Shown in pieces: positions 1-20,789 of a stretch of 64,000 bases of DNA. Position 1 is the first letter of the stretch; each line of letters starts with the position of its first letter. The notes under the pieces were generated by a model. The model worked only from the letters and a program-made list of their open reading frames with translations. It ran no database searches and was not told where the DNA came from. The translations under genes were made by a program, and so were the position numbers. This DNA comes from Sandaracinus amylolyticus (GTDB lineage: Bacteria > Myxococcota_A > Polyangia > Polyangiales > Sandaracinaceae): the NCBI RefSeq assembly GCF_000737325.1, contig NZ_CP011125.1, positions 3,720,001 through 3,784,000 on the forward strand, read 5' to 3'.

Positions 1-2
1 GC

Positions 3-131
3 ACCGACAACCTGCTTTCGACGAAGACGCTGACGGTCACCGATCGGATCGTCCCGCTCGCCTACGTCGAGTTCATCGAAGAGCAGATCGGCTTCGAGAA
101 CCCCGCGCTGCAGGTGCAGGCGGTCGGCTGA
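3..131 (+). CDS. Probable phage tail sheath protein, C-terminal end (partial)
   Basis: An open frame enters from the left edge and stops with TGA at 129-131, giving 42 residues that include the stretch RIVPLAYVEFIEEQIGFENP. The next genes are tail tube, assembly chaperone and tape measure, so this position in contractile-tailed phages is normally the sheath protein. The residues themselves are too few to prove the family; the call rests on gene order. The start lies outside the window. Confidence 0.5.
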   Translation, partial: TDNLLSTKTLTVTDRIVPLAYVEFIEEQIGFENPALQVQAVG

Positions 132-163
132 ACCGCGCGCCGCGCGCGTGAGAGGAGACGACG

Positions 164-640
164 ATGGGCGACACGGTTCGCATCAACGGAGTGCAGATCT
201 CGTGGTCGAGCGTGAAGCTCAAGATCGCGGGGCAGCCCTACTCCGGCATCAAGTCGATCGAGTACGCGGACGGCGTCGAGACGTCGCTCTCGTACGGGAT
301 GGGGAAGCACCACGCGCCGCGCGGTTCGACGCGCGGCAAGTACGTGCCCGAGCCCTTCGTGCTCGACTGCTTCACGAGCACCGCGAAGGCGATCCGCGAG
401 GACCTCAACAAGCTCGCGGGGCGTCGCGGGATCGCGAACGTCCCCGTCGCGATCATTCTGCAGTACGTCGAGCCCGACGACGCCGTCATCACCGTCGAGG
501 CGCTCGACGCGAAGCTGACGAAGAACGAGTCGAGCCACGAGGAGGGCCCCGACGCGCTCTCCGAGAAGCTTTCGTTCCAGCCGATGCGCATCAAGCGCAA
601 CGGGATCGCTCTCTACGACACGACGGAGGCCGGCGCGTGA
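164..640 (+). CDS. Probable phage tail tube protein
   Basis: 158 residues, starting at an ATG six bases after AGGAG (153-157). Tail tube proteins polymerise into the inner tube around the tape measure and below the sheath. The size, the beta-rich look (many alternating hydrophobic residues such as VRINGVQISW) and the place directly between a sheath-like end and a tail assembly chaperone fit a myovirus tube protein (Mu M / P2 FII position). No diagnostic motif is visible, so the function is taken mainly from order. Its TGA overlaps the GTG start of the next gene (GTGA). Confidence 0.65.
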   Translation: MGDTVRINGVQISWSSVKLKIAGQPYSGIKSIEYADGVETSLSYGMGKHHAPRGSTRGKYVPEPFVLDCFTSTAKAIREDLNKLAGRRGIANVPVAIILQYVEPDDAVITVEALDAKLTKNESSHEEGPDALSEKLSFQPMRIKRNGIALYDTTEAGA

Positions 641-1080
641 GCACTGCACACGACGACCTCGACGCACGCCTCGCGAAGGCGCGCGCCGAGATGGAAGAGG
701 TCGATCGCGCGCGCGAGGAGCGCGCGTCGCTCGATGCGAAGCGCGCGCGCGTCGAGGCGGCAGAGCGGGAGGTCGCGGACGCGAAGGCGATCGCCGCGGC
801 CGAGGAGAAGTTCGGCCGCGACAAGATCGCCACGATCAAGACGCCGCTCGGCGTGGTGATCGTGAAGCGCCCGAACCACATGCACTACCGCAAGTTCATC
901 GGCGCGAAGGACATCGGTCCGGACGAGGCAGAGCGGCTCGTGCTCACGTGCCTCGTGCATCCGAGTCGCGCGGCGTTCGAGCAGATCGTCGAGGAGTACC
1001 CGGCGATCCCGACGATCGCGGCGACGCAGGTCGTCGACCTCGCCGCCGGGCGGCAGGAGGAGCTCGCCGGAAAATCCTAG
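637..1080 (+). CDS. Phage tail assembly chaperone, short form (gpG/E-like)
   Basis: 147 residues from a GTG that overlaps the tube gene stop. The first 60 residues are a charged, Ala/Arg/Glu-rich predicted coiled coil; the rest is a compact domain containing IKTPLGVVIVKRP and VHPSRAAFEQIVEEYPAI. The place between tail tube and tape measure is that of tail assembly chaperones, which coat the tape measure protein and help tail polymerisation. In many phages this gene makes a second, longer product by -1 frameshifting near its end, and the sequence here has the needed signals at 1055-1074. The zero-frame product ends at TAG 1078-1080. Confidence 0.7.
   Translation: MSTAHDDLDARLAKARAEMEEVDRAREERASLDAKRARVEAAEREVADAKAIAAAEEKFGRDKIATIKTPLGVVIVKRPNHMHYRKFIGAKDIGPDEAERLVLTCLVHPSRAAFEQIVEEYPAIPTIAATQVVDLAAGRQEELAGKS
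1055..1074 (+). promoter_or_regulatory. Probable programmed -1 ribosomal frameshift signal
   Basis: AGGAGG (1055-1060) lies exactly ten bases before the run A AAA (1071-1074), in the zero frame GGA AAA TCC TAG. This spacing equals that of the stimulatory SD in E. coli dnaX. The Lys tRNA can re-pair on AAA one base back; the P-site GGA to CGG re-pairing is poor, so slippage would depend mainly on the A site. A 7-bp hairpin with a four-base loop lies at 1101-1118, rather far downstream to act as a stimulator. Confidence 0.55.
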
Positions 1081-1277
1081 AGCTGCGGGGGAAGGCGCGC
1101 GGCGATCTCGGGATCGCCGGCGAGTGCCTCCTCGCAGCCCTCGGCCACGAGGACGAGCCCGAGACCGACGACGACCGAGACGCCGCGCACGTGCGCGCTC
1201 TCGTCGGCGCAACGCTGCTCGCAGAGGGACTGCGCGAGCTCGAAGCGATCCGGAAGGCCCTGACCACGACGAAGTGA
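1074..1277 (+). CDS. Frameshift extension of the tail assembly chaperone (GT-type long form)
   Basis: In the -1 frame after codon AAA at 1072-1074 an open frame continues for 67 residues (ILELRGKARGDLG... to ...LEAIRKALTTTK) and stops at 1275-1277, four bases before the tape measure ATG. It has no plausible start of its own near the SD-like AGGAGG (1055-1060): codons 1068-1082 in this frame are CGG, AAA, ATC, CTA, GAG. Read through, the long product would have about 213 residues. The long form of such chaperones typically binds the tape measure. The alternative is an independent short protein from the GTG near 1191. Confidence 0.6.
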   Translation: MLELRGKARGDLGIAGECLLAALGHEDEPETDDDRDAAHVRALVGATLLAEGLRELEAIRKALTTTK

Positions 1278-1281
1278 GCCG

Positions 1282-3105
1282 ATGGCGACCGAGACCGAAA
1301 CCGCGAGATTCGCGCTCGAGCTACAGGACGGGATCAGCGATCCCGCCCGCGACGCCGATGCTGCGCTCTCGGCGCTTCGGCGGAAGATCGACGAGGACAC
1401 GCGCTCGCTTCGACAGATGCAGCAGGCGATGGCACGCCTCCGCGGGAGCTCGCTCGCGAACAGCACCGTCGCGCGCGAGCTGCGCGACCGCATCGCCGCG
1501 CAGCGCCAGTCGCTCGCGCAGGCGCAGGCGCGGTACCTCGAGCTCGGGGGATCGCTCGACGCGCTCGGCGCGAAAGCGGGCAGCGCGAGCGGCGGGCTCG
1601 GGAAGCTGCTCGAGGCGGCGCAAGCGACGCCAGGACCGCTCGGTGGGCTGGTGAGCCGCGTCGGAGCGCTGCGCGCGCTCGTCGCGGGTGGGCCGCTACT
1701 CGCCGGCGTGCTCGGGCTCGCCGCAGGCTTCCTCACCATCGTGGTGGCGTCGACTGCGCTCGTCGGCGCTGTGGGCGCGGCGACGGCCGCGCTGCTGCGT
1801 TACGGGCTCGCGCAGGCCGAGGCGCGACGATCGGAGACGCTGCGCCTCGAGGGGCTGGTGCGCCTCCGCAGCGCGTACGGGCTCGCCGCCGGTTCGGCGA
1901 CCGAGCTGCAGGCCGCGATCGATCGGGTGAGCGACTCGAGCGCGCTCGGGCGGAGCGAGGTCGGCGGCTACGCCGAGCAGCTCTACCGGATGGGTCTGCG
2001 CGGCGGCGCGCTCGAGGAAGCGCTCGACGGCATGGCGATCGCGGGGTCGGCGGGCGGCGAGCGGCTCGCACGCCGATTCGCTGGACTCGCGGTCGGAGCT
2101 GCGCGGATGGGCCGCTCGGTGCGGGCCGTCGCGGACGACTTCCGGGCCCGCTTCGGCGGCGTCGCTGCGGCGCAGGCGCTCGGCTTCGACCGGCAGATGC
2201 TGCGACTCCGACAGAACGTCTCGCGCATCTTCGACGGGCTGAAGATCGAGGGCCTCCTGCGCGCGCTGCGCATGGCGACGTCGCTCTTCTCGCAGTCGAC
2301 GGCGAGCGGGCGCGCGCTCCGACAGATCGCCGAGGTCGTCTTCCAGCCGCTGATCGACGCTGCCGCGAACGGCGGCCCCGTCGTGCGCCGGGTCTTTCAG
2401 GGGATGATCCTGCGCGCGCAGGAGCTCACCATCCTCTTCCTGCGCGCGCGGAACGCGTTCGTGCGCGCGTTCGGCGGGCGCGACGTGCTCGGCGGGCTCG
2501 ACATGCAGTCGCTCGCGCTGCGCGCGGGCGCGCTGCTCGTGACGAGCTTCGTCGCGGCCGTGGTGACGGCGACGATCGCGCTCGCCGGTTTCGCGACGGT
2601 GCTGGGCGTGGTCGCGGCGGGCGTCCTGGTGATGACGGCACCGATCCTCGCGGCGGTCGCTGCGCTCGGCGCGCTCGCGTACGCGGGCGTCACGTACGGC
2701 GAGCAGCTCATGACGGGCCTCGTGAGCGGCATCCAGAAGGGCCGCTCGCTCGTGGTCGCGACGCTCCGCGGCGTGGCAAGCGACGCGACGGCGGCGCTGC
2801 GCTCGGCGCTGCAGATTAGCTCGCCCTCGCGCGTGTTCGCGCAGCTCGGCGTGCAGATCCCGCGCGGCCTCGCGGAGGGCGTCGAGGCGGGCACGTCGGC
2901 CGCGAGCGGTGCGGTCGAGAGTATGGTCTCGGCCGAAGCGCCCCGCGCGGCGGCGCGTGGAGGCTCGTCGATCTCGATCTCGATCGGTGATGTGCACATC
3001 ACCGCCGGGCACACCGACCAGCCGCGCGAACTCGCGCAGAACTTCGTCGACGAGGTCGTGCGCCTGCTCGAGGGCGCGAACATCGAGCTCGGGGGTGCCC
3101 GGTGA
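1282..3105 (+). CDS. Phage tail tape measure protein
   Basis: 607 residues. The tape measure sets tail length and is packed inside the tube. Seen here: an Ala/Arg/Gln-rich helical N-terminal region, a hydrophobic segment at about 139-172, a second long hydrophobic block at about 413-470, and near the C terminus the motif ISSPSRVF (about 511-518) followed by IPRGLAEGVEAG, which is typical of tape measure proteins of contractile and non-contractile phages. It follows the assembly chaperone by four bases and its TGA overlaps the next GTG. The protein is rather short for a tape measure, which predicts a short tail of roughly 90 nm by the usual proportionality. Confidence 0.85.
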   Translation: MATETETARFALELQDGISDPARDADAALSALRRKIDEDTRSLRQMQQAMARLRGSSLANSTVARELRDRIAAQRQSLAQAQARYLELGGSLDALGAKAGSASGGLGKLLEAAQATPGPLGGLVSRVGALRALVAGGPLLAGVLGLAAGFLTIVVASTALVGAVGAATAALLRYGLAQAEARRSETLRLEGLVRLRSAYGLAAGSATELQAAIDRVSDSSALGRSEVGGYAEQLYRMGLRGGALEEALDGMAIAGSAGGERLARRFAGLAVGAARMGRSVRAVADDFRARFGGVAAAQALGFDRQMLRLRQNVSRIFDGLKIEGLLRALRMATSLFSQSTASGRALRQIAEVVFQPLIDAAANGGPVVRRVFQGMILRAQELTILFLRARNAFVRAFGGRDVLGGLDMQSLALRAGALLVTSFVAAVVTATIALAGFATVLGVVAAGVLVMTAPILAAVAALGALAYAGVTYGEQLMTGLVSGIQKGRSLVVATLRGVASDATAALRSALQISSPSRVFAQLGVQIPRGLAEGVEAGTSAASGAVESMVSAEAPRAAARGGSSISISIGDVHITAGHTDQPRELAQNFVDEVVRLLEGANIELGGAR

Positions 3106-3671
3106 CGTTCCGCCCGCTCACCGAGCCGATCGACTACATCGTGCTCGCGGGCCGACGCTCGCCGGGCATCGCGACGATCGAGGGCGCCGACACGCCGCGC
3201 GACTTCGACGAGCGACGTGGCTTCGGCGTGAGCTTCGCTCGCCTGCGCTTCCGCGGCGTGAAGCTCGCGCGCTTCAAGGTGCTGATCGAGCTCGTCACCG
3301 AGCAGGACTGGGACGACTGGCACACCTGGAAGGATCTCGTCGCGCGCCCGGAGATCGAATCCGACCCGCGTCGGCAGAGCTCGTCGATCTTCCCGCGGCT
3401 CACCGCGCCGCCGCTCGACATCGAGCACCCGATCCTCGCGGACCTCGGGATCACCGCGGTCGTGATCGAGAACGCGCTGCAGCCGGTGCAGACCGATCCC
3501 GGCAAGTGGGCGATCGAGATCCGCTGCATCGAGTATCGCGCGCCGATCGTCGCGCTCGAGCAGACGCAGGGCGCGCGTGATCGCCAGGGCGACAACATCG
3601 AGAGCCAGATCGAGCTGAACAGCCGCACAATCGCGGAGCTCTCGAATCCGGCGGGGCTCGCGGGCACATGA
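3102..3671 (+). CDS. Phage tail/baseplate protein in the gpU / gpN position
   Basis: 189 residues from a GTG in a GTGA overlap. I do not recognise the family from the residues. The N-terminal half is beta-rich with several aromatic residues (QDWDDWHTWKDLV at about 69-81), the end is a charged helix. In P2-like phages the gene after the tape measure is U, a tail terminator-type protein, and in Mu it is N; this gene sits in that place directly before the hub-spike protein, so a role in connecting tape measure, tube and baseplate is inferred from order only. Confidence 0.55.
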   Translation: MTFRPLTEPIDYIVLAGRRSPGIATIEGADTPRDFDERRGFGVSFARLRFRGVKLARFKVLIELVTEQDWDDWHTWKDLVARPEIESDPRRQSSSIFPRLTAPPLDIEHPILADLGITAVVIENALQPVQTDPGKWAIEIRCIEYRAPIVALEQTQGARDRQGDNIESQIELNSRTIAELSNPAGLAGT

Positions 3672-4945
3672 CGGCGTTCGCGCACGTCAACGGTCACCCC
3701 GCGATCGCGATCGCGGTGCACGTGCCCGGCGTCGGTCCGTGGTGGGCCGACGTCACGCTCGAAGGCGATCCCGACCTCTCGGGCGCCGTGACGATCGGCA
3801 TCGGCGAGCTCTCGCTCGAGGGCACCGTCGATCCTGGGCACTCGGGCACGCACGGTCTTCAGCGGCGCATGCGCGTCGTTGCTGGTGCTGGCGCGTGGGG
3901 ATCGCTCCTCCGCGCCCGCAGCTACCACAACGATGCGCAGGTCCGCGCGCGCACGGTCGTCGAGGACGCGGCTCGCGAGGCCGGCGAGACGCTCGGCGAC
4001 TTCGCGCCCGCGGCCGAGCGCATCGGCGTCGACTACGTGCGCCAGGCGGGCCCTGCTTCGCGCGCCCTCGAGGACGTGATCGGCGGCGTGCCGTGGTGGG
4101 TGGGCTACGACGGCGTCACCCGCGTGACCTCGCGCGCGAGCGTGGCGGCGGACCCCGCCGCGTACCAGGTGCTCGAGCACGTGCCCGGCGATCGCGTCGT
4201 GGTGCTCGCGGTCGACGATCCGCGCGCCGTGGTGATCGGCTCGGTGCTCTCGCAGGGCCTCGACGAGCCTCAGACGGTGCGCGAGCTCGTGCTCGAGGTC
4301 GCGCCCATCTCGGTGCGCGTGCGCGCGTGGTGCGGCGGCGTCGACGGCGCGCGCGGGCGCATCGCCGGCGCGCTGCGCGGGATCGTGCGGCTCGTGCGCG
4401 ACGAGAAGCTCTTCGGGCTCTGGCGCTACCGCGTCGTGCGCGTGATCGGCACGGCCGAGGACCCGGACGGCGAGCGCCTCGAGCTGCAGGCGGTGCGCCG
4501 CGATGCCGGTCTGCCCGACCTGCTCGCGGTCGACATGTGGCCCGGGATCGCGGGCGCGCACTCGAAGCCCGCGCTCGGCGCCGAGGTGCTCGTCGAGTTC
4601 GTCGAGGGCGACCGGCGCTTGCCGATCGTGGCGCACTTCGGCGGCCGCACCGCGCCCGGCTACGTCCCGCAGCGCCTCGTGCTGAGCGCGTCGAGCGCGG
4701 TGGTGATCGGCAGCCACGACGCCGACGACGCGCCGTCGCTCGCGTCGAAGTCGAACGAGCTGTTCGACAGCATCGCCGCGGCGCTCGACGCGTTCTGCAC
4801 GCCCCTTCCCGTCGCGAACGACGGCGGCGCGGCGCTGCAGACGGCGGTTAGGGCGGTCTGGCCGGGGCGCGCGTCCGGCGCGATCCCGCCGGGTCCTCCG
4901 ACGCCCGCGGCGGACGTTGGCTCGACGAAGGTGGTGATCGAGTGA
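3668..4945 (+). CDS. Phage baseplate hub-spike protein (hub fused to OB-fold spike domain)
   Basis: 425 residues, ATGA overlap with the gene before. The first ~230 residues look like a tail hub (gpD/P-like: AASRALEDVIGGVPWWVGYDG context for binding, then repeated short beta strands). Residues ~235-335 resemble an OB-fold of gpV/gp45-type spikes: GRIAGALRGIVRLV..., LGAEVLVEFVEGDRRLPIVA is a hallmark-like strand pair. The tail (SSAVVIGSHDADDAPSLASK) is like the region after the OB-fold in baseplate assembly proteins. In Mu these are two genes (44 and 45); here they appear as one. The domain split is inferred. Confidence 0.7.
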   Translation: MTAFAHVNGHPAIAIAVHVPGVGPWWADVTLEGDPDLSGAVTIGIGELSLEGTVDPGHSGTHGLQRRMRVVAGAGAWGSLLRARSYHNDAQVRARTVVEDAAREAGETLGDFAPAAERIGVDYVRQAGPASRALEDVIGGVPWWVGYDGVTRVTSRASVAADPAAYQVLEHVPGDRVVVLAVDDPRAVVIGSVLSQGLDEPQTVRELVLEVAPISVRVRAWCGGVDGARGRIAGALRGIVRLVRDEKLFGLWRYRVVRVIGTAEDPDGERLELQAVRRDAGLPDLLAVDMWPGIAGAHSKPALGAEVLVEFVEGDRRLPIVAHFGGRTAPGYVPQRLVLSASSAVVIGSHDADDAPSLASKSNELFDSIAAALDAFCTPLPVANDGGAALQTAVRAVWPGRASGAIPPGPPTPAADVGSTKVVIE

Positions 4946-5418
4946 GCGACCTCGTGCGAGACGCGATCGCGGCCGAGCTCGCGTTGCTCGAGCGAGAACT
5001 GCCGACGCCCGCTGCGCCCTTCGGCTACGGCGCCGACCTCTCGTGCGCGTCGGACCTCACGCCGACGATGGAGAGCGTCGATCCGTTCTCGACGCGCGCG
5101 ATCGCGGAAGCTGCGGCGCGCCGTCTCGACACGCCGCGCGGCTCGTTGGTCGACGATCCGGACTATGGGCTCGACCTCCGCTCGTACCTGAACCGCGGCA
5201 CGACGGCGGCGGACATCAACACGCTCGCCGATCGGGTGCGCACAGAGGTCGCGAAGGACGATCGCATCGCGCGCGTGCGCGTCGTCGTGACGCCGAGCGC
5301 AGACGGTTCCGAGCTCCGCGTCGCGCTGCAGATTCAGCCGGTCGACGCGAACGCTGGCCCGTTCTCCCTGACGCTCGCCGTGACGAGCGCGGGCGTGCTG
5401 ATCGAGGAGCTGCGATGA
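4942..5418 (+). CDS. Phage baseplate wedge protein, gp25/gpW-like
   Basis: 158 residues from GTG in a GTGA overlap. The stretch DYGLDLRSYLNRGTT (about 72-86) followed by a helix with a conserved-looking EVAKDDRIARVRV and two beta strands is the pattern of the gp25/W lysozyme-like wedge family, where a D-x-G-x-D/N-L-R motif is typical. These proteins sit at the sheath-baseplate junction and start sheath assembly. The first ~45 residues are an added N-terminal region. The family usually precedes baseplate J, as it does here. Confidence 0.75.
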   Translation: MSDLVRDAIAAELALLERELPTPAAPFGYGADLSCASDLTPTMESVDPFSTRAIAEAAARRLDTPRGSLVDDPDYGLDLRSYLNRGTTAADINTLADRVRTEVAKDDRIARVRVVVTPSADGSELRVALQIQPVDANAGPFSLTLAVTSAGVLIEELR

Positions 5419-6608
5419 CGCTCGACGAGCTCACGAGACCGCTCACGCCCGCCGAGGTGCGCGAGTTCATCTACGCCGCGATCGCCGCGCGAGGTGGCAG
5501 CCCGACGACGTGGAAGTCCGGCGCGCCGACGCGAACGATCATCGCGGGGCTCGCGATCGTCGTGTCGGGGATGTCGCAGCTCACGGCCGCGATCGCTAAG
5601 AGCGGCTTCCTGGAGCTCGCGGAGGGCGACTGGCTGACGCTCGTCGCGCAGTACGTCTATGGCGTCGAGCGGAGCGCGGGCACGTTCGCGGCCGGCACCG
5701 TCACGATCGACAACACGGGCGGCGGCATCTACGCGCTCGACCCCGGGGACCTGATCGTCATCAACACGACGACGGGCAAGGGCTATCGGAACGTCGCGGC
5801 GGTCTCGATCAACGCGGGCCAGACCGGCGTGGCCGTCGACGTCGAGGCGCTCGAGCTCGGTTCCGACAGCACGTCGCTCGCAGGAGAAATCGACGGCTTC
5901 GGGACCGCTCATCCTGGGCTCACGGTCACGAACGCTGCCGCGCTGATCGGGACGGACCCCGAGGACGACGAGGCGCTGCGTGAACGGTGCCGCGCGAAAA
6001 CCGGAACGTTGTCGCCGAACGGCCCTCGGGACGCCTACGTCTATGTCGCGAAGAGCGCGACGAAGGACGACGGTACGACCGCGGGGGTCACGCGGGTGCG
6101 TACCGTGGCGGACGGCATCGGTGGTGTGACCGTCTACGTCGCGAGCGCGAGCGGGAGTATGCCGGGCAGTGTCGGCGACACGAGCACGGCTCTGGGCGCG
6201 GTCGATGACGCGATTCAGCGTCAGGTCACGCCTCTCGCGATCACCGCGACGACCGTGAGCGCGACGCCCCTGATTGTTCCCGTGACCTACGAAGTGTGGG
6301 TGAGGGACACGTCGGGGCTCTCGAACGCCGAGATCGAAGATCGCGTCGATGATGCGCTCGCGACGTTCATGGCGTCGCAGCCCATCGGCGGGTCGTTGCT
6401 GCCGGGCGAGTCGACGGGTCGCCTGTACAAGACCGCTGTCGAAGCAGCGATCGACGGCGCACTGCGCGCGATCGATGACGCCGACGGCTTCATCCTGCGT
6501 CGCGCCGTGACCGTGCCCGCGGGCGACACTGACCTCGCGAGCAACCAAGCGCCGACCGTCGGCACGCGAACGCCGACGATCCACCAGGTCGCCGAGGGCA
6601 CGCTCTGA
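5415..6608 (+). CDS. Baseplate J family protein
   Basis: 397 residues, ATG at 5415 in an ATGA overlap. Baseplate J proteins form the wedge arms of contractile tails. Visible family features: an N-terminal helix, ELAEGDWLTLVAQYVYGVER (the usual 'A-x-G-x-x-L-D/T-x-x-A' region), a beta-sandwich with a Gly/Thr-rich insert (TIDNTGGGIYALDPGDL), then DDEALRERCRAK, a conserved helix before the second domain (DAYVYVAK...). The end ...VGTRTPTIHQVAEGTL leads directly into the next gene, whose ATG shares one base with the TGA. Confidence 0.85.
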   Translation: MTLDELTRPLTPAEVREFIYAAIAARGGSPTTWKSGAPTRTIIAGLAIVVSGMSQLTAAIAKSGFLELAEGDWLTLVAQYVYGVERSAGTFAAGTVTIDNTGGGIYALDPGDLIVINTTTGKGYRNVAAVSINAGQTGVAVDVEALELGSDSTSLAGEIDGFGTAHPGLTVTNAAALIGTDPEDDEALRERCRAKTGTLSPNGPRDAYVYVAKSATKDDGTTAGVTRVRTVADGIGGVTVYVASASGSMPGSVGDTSTALGAVDDAIQRQVTPLAITATTVSATPLIVPVTYEVWVRDTSGLSNAEIEDRVDDALATFMASQPIGGSLLPGESTGRLYKTAVEAAIDGALRAIDDADGFILRRAVTVPAGDTDLASNQAPTVGTRTPTIHQVAEGTL

Positions 6609-7402
6609 TGGCACGCCTCTCCGCAGTGGGCGCGGTCCGTCGCCTCACGCCGCCGTGGCTCCGACGCACGCACGGCGCGCGCGTGACGGAGGGCATGGCC
6701 GACGCGCTCGATCACCTCGTCGAGCGCGCCGTGCACGGCGTAAAGCTGCGTTTCCCCGGCGCGCCGCCGCGCCCCATCGACGAGGGCGCGCTCGCGCTCA
6801 CCGGCCGAGAGCGACGCATCCGGCGCGGTCCGCGTGAGCCCGCGGCCAGGTACGCCGCGCGACTGCTCACGTGGTGGGACGCGCATCGCACGCGCGGGGG
6901 CCCGTACGCGCTGCTCGAGCAGATGCGCGCGTACTTCCTCGACTCGCTCCGCGTCCGCATGGACGTCGTCTATCACTCGGGCACCCGCCGTTGGATGGAC
7001 GAGGACGGCGCGATCACGCGCGACGCGATCACGTGGAACGCGGACGGCTCGGATCACTGGGCGCGGATCTGGATCTTCCTCTACGTCGACGACGCGCTCG
7101 TCGAGGACGAGCTCGTCACGCACGACGGCGAGGGGCTCGTTACGCACGACGGCGAGGAGCTTGTCGCGCTGTCTGGGTCGCTGATCGTCGGCGGCACCGT
7201 CAGCGACGAGAACGCCGAGGAGATCGTCGCGGTTCCGCGCGAGTGGAGCGCCGCACACGTCGAGCGAACGACGGTCGTCCTGCTCTACGGCGCCGCGCGT
7301 CTCTGGAACTACGCGCAACCGGTCCCGAGCTGGGCCGCATGGGGCGCCTCCGGCGCGACGTGGGGCGGCCCGACGCCCGTGCTTCTCACCATCGAGGGTT
7401 GA
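6608..7402 (+). CDS. Phage tail protein in the gpI / Mu gp48 position
   Basis: 264 residues; start overlaps the J stop by one base. Not recognised by residues. It occupies the place of the gpI/DUF2313-type protein which links baseplate to fibres, and its aromatic-rich end (PVPSWAAWGASGATWGGPTP) resembles the C termini of such proteins. Residues ~168-186 contain a short internal duplication, VTHDGEGLVTHDGEELV. Basic N terminus (WLRRTH, RERRIRRGPR). Function inferred from order. Confidence 0.55.
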   Translation: MARLSAVGAVRRLTPPWLRRTHGARVTEGMADALDHLVERAVHGVKLRFPGAPPRPIDEGALALTGRERRIRRGPREPAARYAARLLTWWDAHRTRGGPYALLEQMRAYFLDSLRVRMDVVYHSGTRRWMDEDGAITRDAITWNADGSDHWARIWIFLYVDDALVEDELVTHDGEGLVTHDGEELVALSGSLIVGGTVSDENAEEIVAVPREWSAAHVERTTVVLLYGAARLWNYAQPVPSWAAWGASGATWGGPTPVLLTIEG

Positions 7403-7405
7403 GCG

Positions 7406-8098
7406 ATGCCGCAGAACATCACCGACACGTCGACGTTCACGGATCCGATCGTGATCCCGGCGGATGCCGATCCCGCCGACCTCACGTACATCGAGACGCT
7501 CGCGCAGGGACTCGCGAACCGGACGCGGTTCCTGCGCGACTACTGCACCGACCAGGGCGTTCAGCTTCCCGCGGCGACCCAGCACATCCGGTACATCGGC
7601 GCGCAGGCGGCGCAGCCGGGCATGGAGACGGACGGCGCGCCACGATGGCGAGCGCGTCTCCTCGGAGCACCGCCGGACAACTTCGACGGCGCGTGGCGAT
7701 CGAACGCGTCGTTCGCCGAGCTGTTCCTCGATCTCACCCCGCGACTTGTGCGCGGCGGGACGCTGATCCGCGTGCGTGCGCTCGTTCGACCGGGCGCCAC
7801 GCTCGCCGCGCGCGGCGGCGCCGGGAACGGCGTGCAGGCCGCGGTGTTCGGCGTCTCGTTCGGCGCCTCGTTCGCGGCGCCGGCGATCACGACGACGCAC
7901 GTGGGCACGACCGACGAGGACGACGGCACGACGAACCTGCAGTGGCTGCAAGTCGACCTCGCGCCCTCCGGCGTCGCGGTGAGCACCTACGCGACCTGGT
8001 ACCTGCGCCTCTACGCGGGCGTCGATGGCGACACGAACCGCGATTTTTTCTACGGCGCGATGGTCGAAGTCGCGTCGCCGACGATCCGCAACGACTGA
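7406..8098 (+). CDS. Putative phage tail fibre-associated protein
   Basis: 230 residues, three bases after the previous stop. No family recognised. It begins with a short region typical of fibre/baseplate adaptors (Thr/Asp-rich, then an ANRTRFLRDYC helix resembling 'ANRT..L' segments at the base of fibres), and continues as a beta-rich domain. The position after the gpI-like gene and before two other beta-rich proteins suggests part of the host-recognition apparatus. Confidence 0.5.
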   Translation: MPQNITDTSTFTDPIVIPADADPADLTYIETLAQGLANRTRFLRDYCTDQGVQLPAATQHIRYIGAQAAQPGMETDGAPRWRARLLGAPPDNFDGAWRSNASFAELFLDLTPRLVRGGTLIRVRALVRPGATLAARGGAGNGVQAAVFGVSFGASFAAPAITTTHVGTTDEDDGTTNLQWLQVDLAPSGVAVSTYATWYLRLYAGVDGDTNRDFFYGAMVEVASPTIRND

Positions 8099-8112
8099 GG
8101 AGAGCGCGCGTC

Positions 8113-9075
8113 ATGGCGAAGCGATTCACCGAGCTCGCGGAGCTCACCACGCCGGCCGACGTCGACGTTCTCGCGCTCGAGGACATCGCGGCCGACGAGA
8201 CGAAGAAGATCACGGTCGCGAACCTGCGCGCTGTGATGCGCGGGACCGCGCTCGAGCTCGTCCCCGCGGACGCGCCCGGTGCCGCGGTCGGGCTCTCGGG
8301 GAACAACCTCGCGGGCTCGTTCGAGGCCAAGTTCTTTCTGAGCGCGCCCGCCGGCGAGCCCGCAGACCCGGCGACGAGCGGCCCGTACTACCTGCACTTC
8401 GACGACGGCGGTTCGAACGAGGAGGACGTCATCGTCATCCGCCGCGTCGGGGCCGTGCGCCATCTCGCGTCGCCGCTGCAGCACGACTACCTCTCGGGAT
8501 CGGCGACGGTCGCGTACGCGGGCCCGGCGACGTCGCCCGCGACGGTGGGCGGCATGCCGGCGACGGCGTTCGCCCGCCTCGAGGCGCTCGACTTCGAGCA
8601 CACGCAGAACCCCGAAGACAACGGCGTCGCGACGCCCGGCAATTCGGGGAAGTGGGCGCACTCGAACCACGTGCACCCGGCCGCCGGCGCCGCCGCGATC
8701 TCCTTCGACCCGACCGGGCTGACGATCCCCGCCACCAACGTGCAGGAGGCGATCGAGCAGGCCATCGCGCCGATCGCGCCGACCACGGAGATCGGCACGT
8801 CGCGATCCGTCGGCACCAGCGATCACGGGCGAACGATCATCTGCTCGGCCGCAGGCGCCGTGACGATCACGGCGCTCGTCGCGGAGCCCGGCACCACCGT
8901 CGCTCTCCTGCAGGCGGGCACCGGGAAGGTCTCGGTCGTCGGCGACACCGGCGTCACCGTCGCGGCAGAGCCCGACTTCGTGCCGAGCTCGCGCGCCGAG
9001 GGCTGCCTCCTCGTGGCTCACTGGCTCGCGAACAACTACCTGCTCGTCACGGGCTCGCTCGAGGACGCCCCGTGA
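8113..9075 (+). CDS. Putative phage tail fibre / structural protein
   Basis: 320 residues; ATG at 8113 after GAGGAGAG (8096-8103). Not recognised with certainty. The N terminus MAKRFTELAELTTPADVDVLALEDIAADETKKITVANL is of the kind seen at the start of phage fibre proteins ('..D.l.i.d....tkkit..nl'). The middle holds a KWAHSNHVHP motif like the G-x-H-x-H of fibre proteins, followed by an Ala/Gly/Thr-rich C-terminal domain. Its TGA overlaps the next GTG. Confidence 0.6.
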   Translation: MAKRFTELAELTTPADVDVLALEDIAADETKKITVANLRAVMRGTALELVPADAPGAAVGLSGNNLAGSFEAKFFLSAPAGEPADPATSGPYYLHFDDGGSNEEDVIVIRRVGAVRHLASPLQHDYLSGSATVAYAGPATSPATVGGMPATAFARLEALDFEHTQNPEDNGVATPGNSGKWAHSNHVHPAAGAAAISFDPTGLTIPATNVQEAIEQAIAPIAPTTEIGTSRSVGTSDHGRTIICSAAGAVTITALVAEPGTTVALLQAGTGKVSVVGDTGVTVAAEPDFVPSSRAEGCLLVAHWLANNYLLVTGSLEDAP

Positions 9076-10226
9076 ACGCCGCGCACCTGCTGCGCATGGG
9101 CGCGGGCGCGATGAACGCGCGCCGGCGCGCCTCCATCGACGGCGTCGTGCTCGATCTGTTCTCGGGCGGAACGGTCACGCGCGCGGGCGTGAAGTACGTG
9201 CAGAGCGACGGCGACTCGCTCGTGCAGGTCGCATCGGGCGTGCGCGCGATCGAGAATCGGGGCGACGGCGCCGGCGACATGCTCAGCATGGAGGGCTCGC
9301 GCTCAAACGTCGTGCGCGGCTCGACGCCGGTCAGCGTGAGCGGGCTCGCGAGCAACCTCGCGACCCCGACCTTCGCCGCCGTCGATGGCCCGCTCGGGCC
9401 GATGACCGCAGCGACCTACGCGTTCACGGCGAGCACCGACTCGCGGGTCATCTACGCGTGGGGCAGCGTGCCCGCCGACAACGTGCTCGCGCACCTGAGC
9501 TGCTGGGTACGCGCGCAGAGCGGAACCCAGACAGTCCGCCTCGTCATGCGCACGAAGGCCGCGACCTACGTCTACTCGCCCGACTTCGTGATCGGGACGA
9601 CGTGGACGCGCATCAGTTGGGACGTGAGCGTCGGCGCCGGCGCGTCCGCACCGACGACTGGGCTGGCCACGGGCTCAGACGGGCTCGCGCGTACCGTCGA
9701 GGTCGCCTGCTTTCAGGCTGAGGGCAACTCGACGACGACCTTCGGGTTTCCGTCGTCGTACATCGCGAACCCAGGAACGTCGTTCACCACGCGCGTCGCG
9801 GATCGGCTCACGTACGCCGTGGGCGAGTACCCGGCGAGCTTCCTGACCGACGGCTTCGAGATGACGGTCCGCCCCGACGGCTCCAGCTCGGAGATCGTCG
9901 CTACGTCGTCGAACATCGCGCTCGCGGCGATCGGCTCCACGACGTACCTCCTGTTTCAGATCAGCGCGGGCAACCTCCGCCCGATCATGGTCGTCAACAA
10001 CGTCGCCCGGATCACCGGCGCCAACATCACGTTCTCGCGCGGACAGGCGGTCACGGTGGCGCTGCGGCCCTCCGCCGGAACGCTGACCGTCGCGGGCGCG
10101 ACGACCGGGAACGGCCTCAACACCGGCACCGGCGAGGCGTGGCCGAGCGGGACGCTCGACATCGGCCGCACGAGCGTGGGCGGCAACCTCAACGGGCGTA
10201 TCGCCCGATACATGGTGGGGCTCTGA
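9072..10226 (+). CDS. Putative receptor-binding tail protein with LamG/carbohydrate-binding-like domains
   Basis: 384 residues from GTG in a GTGA overlap. Ser/Thr/Gly-rich, strongly beta. Residues ~90-220 look like a carbohydrate-binding module of phage fibres (AATYAFTAST, SCWVRAQSGTQTVRLVMRT, then CFQAEGNSTTTFGFPSSYI, a phrase common in phage fibre CBM-like domains), and the end (NGRIARYMVGL) looks like a concanavalin A/LamG-like strand. It probably binds the host surface. Assignment is by pattern, not by search. Confidence 0.6.
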   Translation: MNAAHLLRMGAGAMNARRRASIDGVVLDLFSGGTVTRAGVKYVQSDGDSLVQVASGVRAIENRGDGAGDMLSMEGSRSNVVRGSTPVSVSGLASNLATPTFAAVDGPLGPMTAATYAFTASTDSRVIYAWGSVPADNVLAHLSCWVRAQSGTQTVRLVMRTKAATYVYSPDFVIGTTWTRISWDVSVGAGASAPTTGLATGSDGLARTVEVACFQAEGNSTTTFGFPSSYIANPGTSFTTRVADRLTYAVGEYPASFLTDGFEMTVRPDGSSSEIVATSSNIALAAIGSTTYLLFQISAGNLRPIMVVNNVARITGANITFSRGQAVTVALRPSAGTLTVAGATTGNGLNTGTGEAWPSGTLDIGRTSVGGNLNGRIARYMVGL

Positions 10227-18603: not shown

Positions 18604-19779
18604 ATGAACGACCGAACGCACTTCGAGGACTACCGACCCCAAACAGCTGCAAAGCACTCGATCCTCGAGAAGTACATCTTCGCGTTCTTCAACATCGTGA
18701 AGAACAGCGCGGTCGGCGAGGCGCCGAAGAACCTCGTGTATGTCGACGGTTTCGCAGGCCGGGGCACATACGACAACGGAGACGGAACCGTGTCGCCCGG
18801 ATCGCCGTTGCGGGCGCTCGAGCGGATCGCGTCACACCGCGATCTCGCGGCGAAGGTCTCGACGATCTTCATCGAGAAAAACAAGGCCAACTACAACGAC
18901 CTGACGCAGGAACTCGCGCGTTTCTACGCAGGCCACCCGCATATCAGAGAGCCGCAGCACTCGAACGGCACGTTCGCAGAGACGATGACCACGATGCTCG
19001 ACGAGATTGAAGCCAAGCCGGACCATACGATCGCGCCCGCCTTCATTTTCGTGGATCCGTGTGGCGTTGATGGTGTCGATTTCAAAGTGATCGAGCGGAT
19101 TCTTAAGGCGCAGCGACAGTCCGAGTTCTTCATCTTCTTCAACATCGATGGTGTCCGTCGCCTGCTGGGAGCAGCCGACCACATCAAGATGCGGACTCTG
19201 ACGATGCTGCTCGGTTCCGAGGTCCGCGCGAAGCAACTCTCCGAGCAGTTCGCAGCGCTTGACGTTCCCGAGAAGCGCGAAGAGGCCGTCATCGCCTACT
19301 ACGAGTCGCTGCTGACGTCCGAGACGCCGGCGAAGTACGTGGTCCCGTTCCGCATTGAGTTCGAAGGTCGTAGGGCGACGAGCCACTACCTCATCCACGC
19401 GGCGCAGCACCGTCGCGGCTTCGCGATCATGAAGGACGTGATGTGGAACGTCGGCCAGACGGCGGAGGGCAAGGGCGGACTCGAGTTCGTGCAGTCCGGC
19501 ATGAGGATGCTGTTCACGCCGCAGTGGGACAGCATCAAGCGGAGCGTTCTCGAGGAACTGAAGACCGGCCCGCAGATCGTCTCGTATTTCTACAACGACC
19601 TGCCCGAGCGGCCGGACAACCGTCTGGCGAGACCCGCGTATCGCAACGCTCTGCTGGAACTCGAGAGCGAGCGGAAGATCGTGGTCCTCGACAAAGACGG
19701 GCGCACGCCGAAGCCCAACCGGCCGAAGCGCCACGGCAGGATCACCCTGGGCGAGAACTACTGGGTCAGGCTGCCGTAG
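18604..19779 (+). CDS. tcmP: Three-Cys-motif partner protein TcmP
   Basis: 391 residues; ATG after GGAGGG (18596-18601). A Rossmann-methyltransferase-like pattern is visible: YVDGFAGRGTYDNG (about 46-59, motif I position) and IFVDPCGVDG (148-156, motif IV position, reminiscent of the DPPY of DNA methyltransferases). The TcmP family is named after its association with a three-Cys-motif protein, which is indeed encoded convergently next door with a 14-base overlap at the 3' ends. Biochemical role unknown. Composition is less GC-rich than its neighbours, as expected of a mobile gene. Confidence 0.85.
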   Translation: MNDRTHFEDYRPQTAAKHSILEKYIFAFFNIVKNSAVGEAPKNLVYVDGFAGRGTYDNGDGTVSPGSPLRALERIASHRDLAAKVSTIFIEKNKANYNDLTQELARFYAGHPHIREPQHSNGTFAETMTTMLDEIEAKPDHTIAPAFIFVDPCGVDGVDFKVIERILKAQRQSEFFIFFNIDGVRRLLGAADHIKMRTLTMLLGSEVRAKQLSEQFAALDVPEKREEAVIAYYESLLTSETPAKYVVPFRIEFEGRRATSHYLIHAAQHRRGFAIMKDVMWNVGQTAEGKGGLEFVQSGMRMLFTPQWDSIKRSVLEELKTGPQIVSYFYNDLPERPDNRLARPAYRNALLELESERKIVVLDKDGRTPKPNRPKRHGRITLGENYWVRLP

Positions 19780-20521
19780 CCCTTATCGGCGGCATCTCGT
19801 CATAGGTCCGTCCGTCCAGCGATCGACCAGCGGACTTCTTTCGCACCCCGCCCCATTGCTTGAAGAAGAACGGGACCGCGGCACGCTGACACTTGGCGTG
19901 GATCTCTCGAACCCACTCGGGCTCGAGATGGCGTGCCGCAGGGCCGGATTCGCCGCCGACGATCACCCACTGGATCCCAGCGACGTCCAGATCGGGCAGG
20001 CCTTCAAGTAGAGGCTCGAGGGACAAGAAGCGCACCTTCGCCGGAACGCTCACGAGATGCTCGATCCGCGGCAGGTACCGCTGCGACTCCACGCTCACGC
20101 CCATCCAAACGTTCGACGGCCACGGGAGCCGGCCAGCGAGCTCAGCGAGTCGTTCCGACCGCTTCGTGAGCACCTGGAACGTGTGCCAGTGTGCTCGCTC
20201 CATCGTGGCGAACACCTCGCGGATGAAGTCGAGCGGCACGCTCTCGTGGAACAGGTCAGACATTGAGTTCACGAACACGAGGCGCGGCCGTCGCCAGTGC
20301 AGCGGCTCGTCGAGCGCCTCGCGCACGAGCTTCACGGTCCCCGTCCACTGCGGACCCTTGCGACTGAGGCGGGTGAGTCCTTCGTACGCTCCACCGGGCG
20401 CGCTGAAACGATGTGCCATCCGCTCGGCGTAACAGCGCTCGCACCCAGGAGAGACGCGGCTGCATCCGCGCACCGGGTTCCAGGTGGACTCGGTCCATTC
20501 GATCGACGAGATCGTGCTCAT
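19766..20521 (-). CDS. Three-Cys-motif protein (DUF5131 / phage Gp37-Gp68 family)
   Basis: 251 residues from ATG 20521. The N-terminal segment WNPVRGCSRVSPGCERCYAE holds Cys20, Cys27 and Cys30, a C-x6-C-x2-C motif like that of radical-SAM enzymes. Further features: VFVNSMSDLFHESVP, VLTKRSERL, VGVSVESQ, LSLEPLLEGL and VIVGGESGP, the usual sequence landmarks of this family. It pairs with TcmP. Function unknown; an iron-sulfur radical enzyme is a reasonable guess. An 11-base palindrome TGTACTGTACA lies upstream at 20582-20592. Confidence 0.85.
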   Translation of the reverse strand: MSTISSIEWTESTWNPVRGCSRVSPGCERCYAERMAHRFSAPGGAYEGLTRLSRKGPQWTGTVKLVREALDEPLHWRRPRLVFVNSMSDLFHESVPLDFIREVFATMERAHWHTFQVLTKRSERLAELAGRLPWPSNVWMGVSVESQRYLPRIEHLVSVPAKVRFLSLEPLLEGLPDLDVAGIQWVIVGGESGPAARHLEPEWVREIHAKCQRAAVPFFFKQWGGVRKKSAGRSLDGRTYDEMPPIRATAA

Positions 20522-20789
20522 GCAGCGCCTCCGGGCGGAGCCTACTAGCGTCACGCAGCGACCGCACCACGGGGCGCCGGTTGTACTGTACATCGGTTCA
20601 GCAGTGGCGCACCAGTGCTCACGGCTTCCGCGTCACGGACCCGGGCTCGTCTGGATCTGTGACGGTCGTAACGGCCTGCGAAACGGGCTCCGATCCGCCC
20701 TGATTCGCGCGGGCGGCCCTCCGAGTAGAGAGATTGCCGATCCGCGTAGAATCGGGCTGCATCGGCTCACGCCGCGACGCGCGCCTCTC
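20522..20789. other. Intergenic region upstream of the three-Cys-motif gene
   Basis: 268 bases without a convincing gene. It should contain the minus-strand promoter of the three-Cys-motif gene. The palindrome TGTAC-T-GTACA at 20582-20592 is the only clear element. Several short ORFs cross it but none has a good start or composition. Confidence 0.4.

Follow-up and report, generated by a model that had tools for sequence, protein, structure and literature searches.

The tail assembly chaperone gene of a prophage in a 10.3 Mb genome is very probably expressed through a programmed -1 ribosomal frameshift of the phage lambda G/GT type. Judged by its genes, this prophage, which IMG/VR lists as a 39 kb virus, is Mu-headed and contractile-tailed. 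Genome size, GC content and style suggest a myxobacterial host. The 64 kb stretch of DNA that we analysed (the window) opens within its sheath gene (DUF2586). The genes upstream are those for terminase, a Mu-type portal, an S49 protease, a Mu gpT-like capsid protein and the neck, and those downstream encode the tape measure and gp25-like and J-like baseplate proteins. In support of the frameshift, both frames are coding, their junction is conserved, the slippery codons are under selection, the product has a predicted chaperone fold and the gene lies between those for the tail tube and the tape measure, as in G/GT-type systems (Table 1).

Table 1. Features of the chaperone locus in window coordinates.
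Feature	Position	Strand	Basis
Tail tube protein	164..640	+	phrog_4579 tail protein, 3e-6; after the DUF2586 sheath gene
Tail assembly chaperone, zero-frame product, 147 aa, GpG-like	637..1080	+	Weak DUF6848 match; predicted fold
AGGAGG, putative SD-like upstream stimulator	1055..1060	+	Host 16S 3' end carries CACCTCCTT
Slippery site C_GGA_AAA	1068..1074 (core A_AAA 1071-1074)	+	Aligned junctions, 30 loci
Zero-frame stop codon TAG	1078..1080	+	ORF reading
Predicted stem-loop, putative downstream stimulator	1082..1138	+	7-nt spacer from slippery site
-1-frame extension, 67 aa, T-like domain	1074..1277	+	Kept in all homologous loci; predicted three-helix domain
Tape measure protein	1282..3105	+	phrog_5493 tape measure, 5.5e-14, plus others

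The chaperone ORF starts at a GTG that shares bases with the tube gene's stop codon, and it ends CAG GAG GAG CTC GCC GGA AAA TCC TAG. Its AGGAGG lies 7 nt from C_GGA_AAA and exactly ten bases upstream of A_AAA, as an earlier note on this DNA had stated. The same note placed the A_AAA immediately before a stop codon; the stop is indeed near, but one codon (TCC) intervenes. The -1 frame was correctly described as open to four bases before the tape measure gene, ending in TGA (1275-1277) ahead of the ATG at 1282, and as having no start of its own nearby, with no ATG, GTG or TTG between GTG 948 and GTG 1191. The predicted fusion product has 146 + 67 = 213 aa. Openness alone is weak evidence for coding here, because the genome is 71% GC and the open stretch of the -1 frame begins upstream of position 600. 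The combination AGGAGG-N(4-14)-AAAA occurs once in the window, against 0.04 occurrences expected by chance.

Searches of the window's class and of 379 genomes of its phylum yielded, once near-copies had been merged, 30 distinct -1 loci, all of which belong to the window's class. In each of them the zero-frame chaperone ends at a slippery site near its own stop codon, and a -1-frame extension of 45-106 aa follows at the junction (30/30), with the common pattern R.D..AG.CL.A...G ... VGA.L.AE. The window extension scores 52 bits against a profile built from the extensions of the other loci, whereas the other two frames and five shuffles reach at most 6.6 bits with the same profile. Within close pairs, most substitutions hit third codon positions of the -1 frame (for example 5, 2 and 23 over the three positions for loci L003 and L007), and AlphaFold predicts the window extension to be a confident three-helix domain (pLDDT 95.9). 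The second frame is thus conserved coding sequence that lacks a start of its own and reaches the tape measure gene, in line with the gpG/gpGT-type -1 frameshift that the earlier note had proposed at this position. Neither of the two observations that would speak against such a shift, a normal start codon for the second frame in homologues or unconserved -1-frame residues, was made in the 30 loci. Alignment with related loci, which the note had suggested, confirms a conserved frame junction but not a conserved exact SD spacing.

The extension domain is listed in none of the libraries that we searched, probably because it has no start codon. A PHROG search with the window extension gave no match, and comparison of its fold among viral proteins gave no clear match. 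Single-protein scans of genome and viral contigs returned an identical copy only, or nothing; the identical copy in IMG/VR may come from the same genome.

The AlphaFold model of the zero-frame product (pLDDT 95.2) resembles a chaperone in its fold. Its best PDB matches are 3FGX (Z 9.5), yqbN 3KLU (Z 5.1) and the HK97 chaperone 2OB9 (Z 4.8), with Foldseek E values of 0.02-0.04 for 3FGX and 2OB9, and these comparisons of a model give moderate support to a tail chaperone fold. The match to the three structures extends over about 75-92 residues; unlike them, the window protein adds a 57-residue N-terminal helix, and sequence identity is 11-18%. Pfam DUF6848 (PF20941) matches 7 of 15 chaperone members (best 3.7e-10), a sequence relationship which suggests that the DUF6848 proteins are tail assembly chaperones. 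One lineage (L021, L029, L051, L062, L063, L065 and L067) has two tandem chaperone-domain matches per ORF and the site G_GGG_GGG.

For the comparison of slippery sites, we located the A site through AAA or AAG codons near the stop, a procedure that fixes Lys but leaves free both the choice between AAA and AAG and the third base of the P-site codon. The site is G_GGA_AAR in 16 of the 30 loci, A_AAA_AAR in five and G_GGG_GGG in one, so that 22/30 satisfy the X_XXY_YYZ rule. Six more, the window among them, have a bare A_AAA with a mismatched P site (C_GGA_AAA in the window, C_CGA_AAA in L020 and L034, G_CGA_AAA in L030, C_GCA_AAA in L024 and G_GAA_AAA in L073), which brings the loci with a canonical heptamer or an A_AAA core to 28/30; the remaining two sites are G_GGG_AAA and G_GGG_GAA. 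The third base of the P-site codon is A in 27/30 loci, compared with a background of 7% (p 4e-28). The Lys codon is AAA in 23/28, compared with 19/178 (11%) in the background (p 1e-14 for AAA over AAG), and the P-site Gly codon is GGA in 17/20, compared with 31/305 (p 4e-13). Because codon choice at the junction runs against codon bias, it is the nucleotides that are selected, and not the residues alone.

In the window, the A site re-pairs fully in the -1 frame but the P site (GGA to CGG) does not, and C_GGA_AAA breaks the classical heptamer rule. The earlier note had seen only a four-base site unlike the classical heptamers. That view is not supported: in the aligned sequences the form that looks ancestral is G_GGA_AAR, the classical heptamer of lambda, and the window site is a one-base variant of it. 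Since its nearest relatives, L003 and L007, have G_GGA_AAG, the heptamer of the window was probably lost when the preceding Ala codon changed from GCG to GCC. The bare-tetramer loci do not group on a tree that has few firm branches and predates L073. In E. coli, G_GG.A_AA.G ranks among the most efficient heptamers (PMC4066793); in such measurements A-site re-pairing matters most, A_AA.A comes last among the six tetramers with activity, and tetramers are barely shifty without a stimulator. PRFect lists relaxed motifs in annotated phage frameshifts, including one named 'twofour', a name that fits GGAAAA.

Candidate stimulators lie on both sides of the site. The end of the host 16S rRNA pairs with the AGGAGG. 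Averaged over the loci, the anti-SD energy is strongest 4-7 nt upstream of the heptamer (-4.9 versus -1.3 kcal/mol in the background), and SD-like elements are commoner near the site than elsewhere in the gene (permutation p below 1e-4), with strong versions in only about half of the loci. Selection for the SD across the family was considered and rejected: when the same residues are recoded synonymously, the strength is equal (p 0.29), and the element may therefore be a by-product of the encoded Glu and Lys residues.

Downstream of the site the window has a strong predicted stem-loop that was absent from the earlier account. The stretch 1079-1144 has an MFE of -40.7 (z -2.96, or -3.43 when computed on a slightly different stretch) and a p of 0.00025 against synonymous recoding; a fold of this quality is reached by about 1% of the window's 66-nt stretches. 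When the region is folded together with upstream sequence, other pairings are preferred; with the upstream part covered by a ribosome, the modelled stem-loop is what one would expect to form in front of it. At the same position across loci, the mean z is about the lowest of 72 offsets (-0.96 at +3, -0.99 at +12), and z falls below -2 in 8/26 loci. A hairpin common to the family was rejected, because the synonymous null shows a bias wherever it is applied along the sequence and the excess is only modest. The window's SD and hairpin are among the strongest of the locus set. A compensation of bare tetramers by a stronger SD or hairpin was also considered and set aside: the window and L030 are suggestive only, L020 and L024 do not fit, and the loci are too few.

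From these features we infer the ribosomal shift itself, its efficiency and the roles of the stimulators and the extension. The majority of ribosomes would terminate at the TAG and release the 147-aa chaperone. A minority would slip back one base at GGA_AAA, where tRNA-Lys would re-pair perfectly (AAA to AAA) and tRNA-Gly imperfectly, and would read on to 1277 to give the 213-aa fusion. Slipping is probably stimulated by AGGAGG on one side and the hairpin on the other, which may compensate for the defect in the first half of the heptamer. If the proteins work as in lambda, the tape measure protein would be coated by the chaperone part, while tube subunits would be recruited by the 67-aa extension.

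An alternative reading of the P-site mismatch is that the window copy has lost the frameshift, the change from GCG to GCC having left a decaying prophage that makes the short chaperone only. The intact heptamer of the nearest relatives and the weakness of the A_AAA tetramer in E. coli fit such a loss. However, the window retains GGA and AAA against codon bias, neither its extension nor any tail gene examined is damaged, and its SD and hairpin have the strength described above. Five other loci also keep only A_AAA and are scattered on the tree (which lacks L073). We therefore consider a loss very unlikely.

Slightly less probable still is that the extension is a separate protein, made by AGGAGG-driven re-initiation at a non-standard start. 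An SD just before a gene end can aid coupled re-initiation (review PMC5009743), and ATC 1074 and CTG 1083 lie 13 and 22 nt after the AGGAGG. Against this, the aligned loci have no ATG, GTG or TTG near the junction, with few exceptions such as L034 and L030, about half of them have no strong SD, and the selection for G_GGA_AAR or A_AAA codons would be left unexplained. Joining of the frames by transcriptional slippage, a sequencing error or a frameshift mutation, for which the overlap of the frames and the A residues where they meet might speak, is hardly credible, as the run has only four A compared with about nine in reported bacterial slippage runs (review PMC5009743), the same arrangement recurs in 30 loci from many genomes and the IMG/VR copy, though possibly from the same genome, is identical.

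The proposed -1 frameshift is of an ordinary kind that lambda and numerous further phages use, and its closest counterpart is lambda gpG/gpGT (PMC7618472, PMC5009743), which slips at G_GGA_AAG (PMC7618472). Both lie between the tube and tape measure genes, have a -1 extension without its own start and slip on an A-site Lys codon, and most relatives of the window locus use the same G_GGA_AAR heptamer. The window differs from lambda in its C_GGA_AAA site with imperfect P-site re-pairing, its strong SD-like sequence and its predicted downstream hairpin, and no library that we searched reveals a relation of its sequence to gpG. The earlier note had called the site dnaX-like, which is apt for the layout: E. 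coli dnaX (A_AAA_AAG, SD and stem-loop; PMC5009743) likewise combines an upstream SD, here 10 nt from A_AAA, a tRNA-Lys slip and a stem-loop, here a prediction, a few nucleotides after the site. It is not apt for the heptamer, A_AAA_AAG being replaced by C_GGA_AAA in the window, or for the output, as the dnaX shift gives a shorter product and the window shift a longer one. Tail chaperone frameshifts of Mu-like and FluMu phages (-2 in Mu) are ascribed to Xu et al. 2004, as cited in PMC2628397. Going by that citation, they share with the window the Mu-like head genes upstream and a frameshift before the tape measure, but the shift is -1 in the window and its class, not -2. No frameshift site was found in the Mu-like phage KS10 in the paper describing it, so not every relative must have one.

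The details of interest are the bare tetramer and the frame change in distant relatives. It is conceivable, although we are inclined to doubt it, that the window represents a natural frameshift on a bare A_AAA, in which the SD and a strong hairpin replace the broken P-site half, that this state arose repeatedly from G_GGA_AAR, and that in distant relatives the chaperone family has changed its frameshift from -1 to +1 (or -2), or the reverse. The loci form a sizeable group of frameshifted tail chaperones, apparently not annotated before, in prophages of one myxobacterial class. Their natural series of sites, including bare A_AAA, G_GGG_GGG and the +1/-2 sites of distant relatives, suits tests of the weight of P-site re-pairing in bacterial -1 frameshifting.

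In L049, L055 and L056, from another family of the same phylum, the second-frame extension is in the +1 (or -2) frame and not in -1. The zero frame of L056 ends ACC TTT TGA, which is prfB-like, and that of L049 ends GAA AAA AAG CTG TGA. The direction of the frameshift thus seems, on sequence grounds, to have switched within the chaperone family. Thermus phage Riverbug (PQ109080; L040 2432-2897) has a similar arrangement, with an extension that carries on in +1 near CGA TTT CTG; its record annotates only a 31-aa ORF. Prophage sequence with Mu-type head genes, an MT-A70 methyltransferase gene and replication-initiation and DnaC-like genes was seen at L038 4770-17999 and window 1-10226, and a DUF5131 (Gp88-like) gene at 19766-20593 on the minus strand (4.6e-97).
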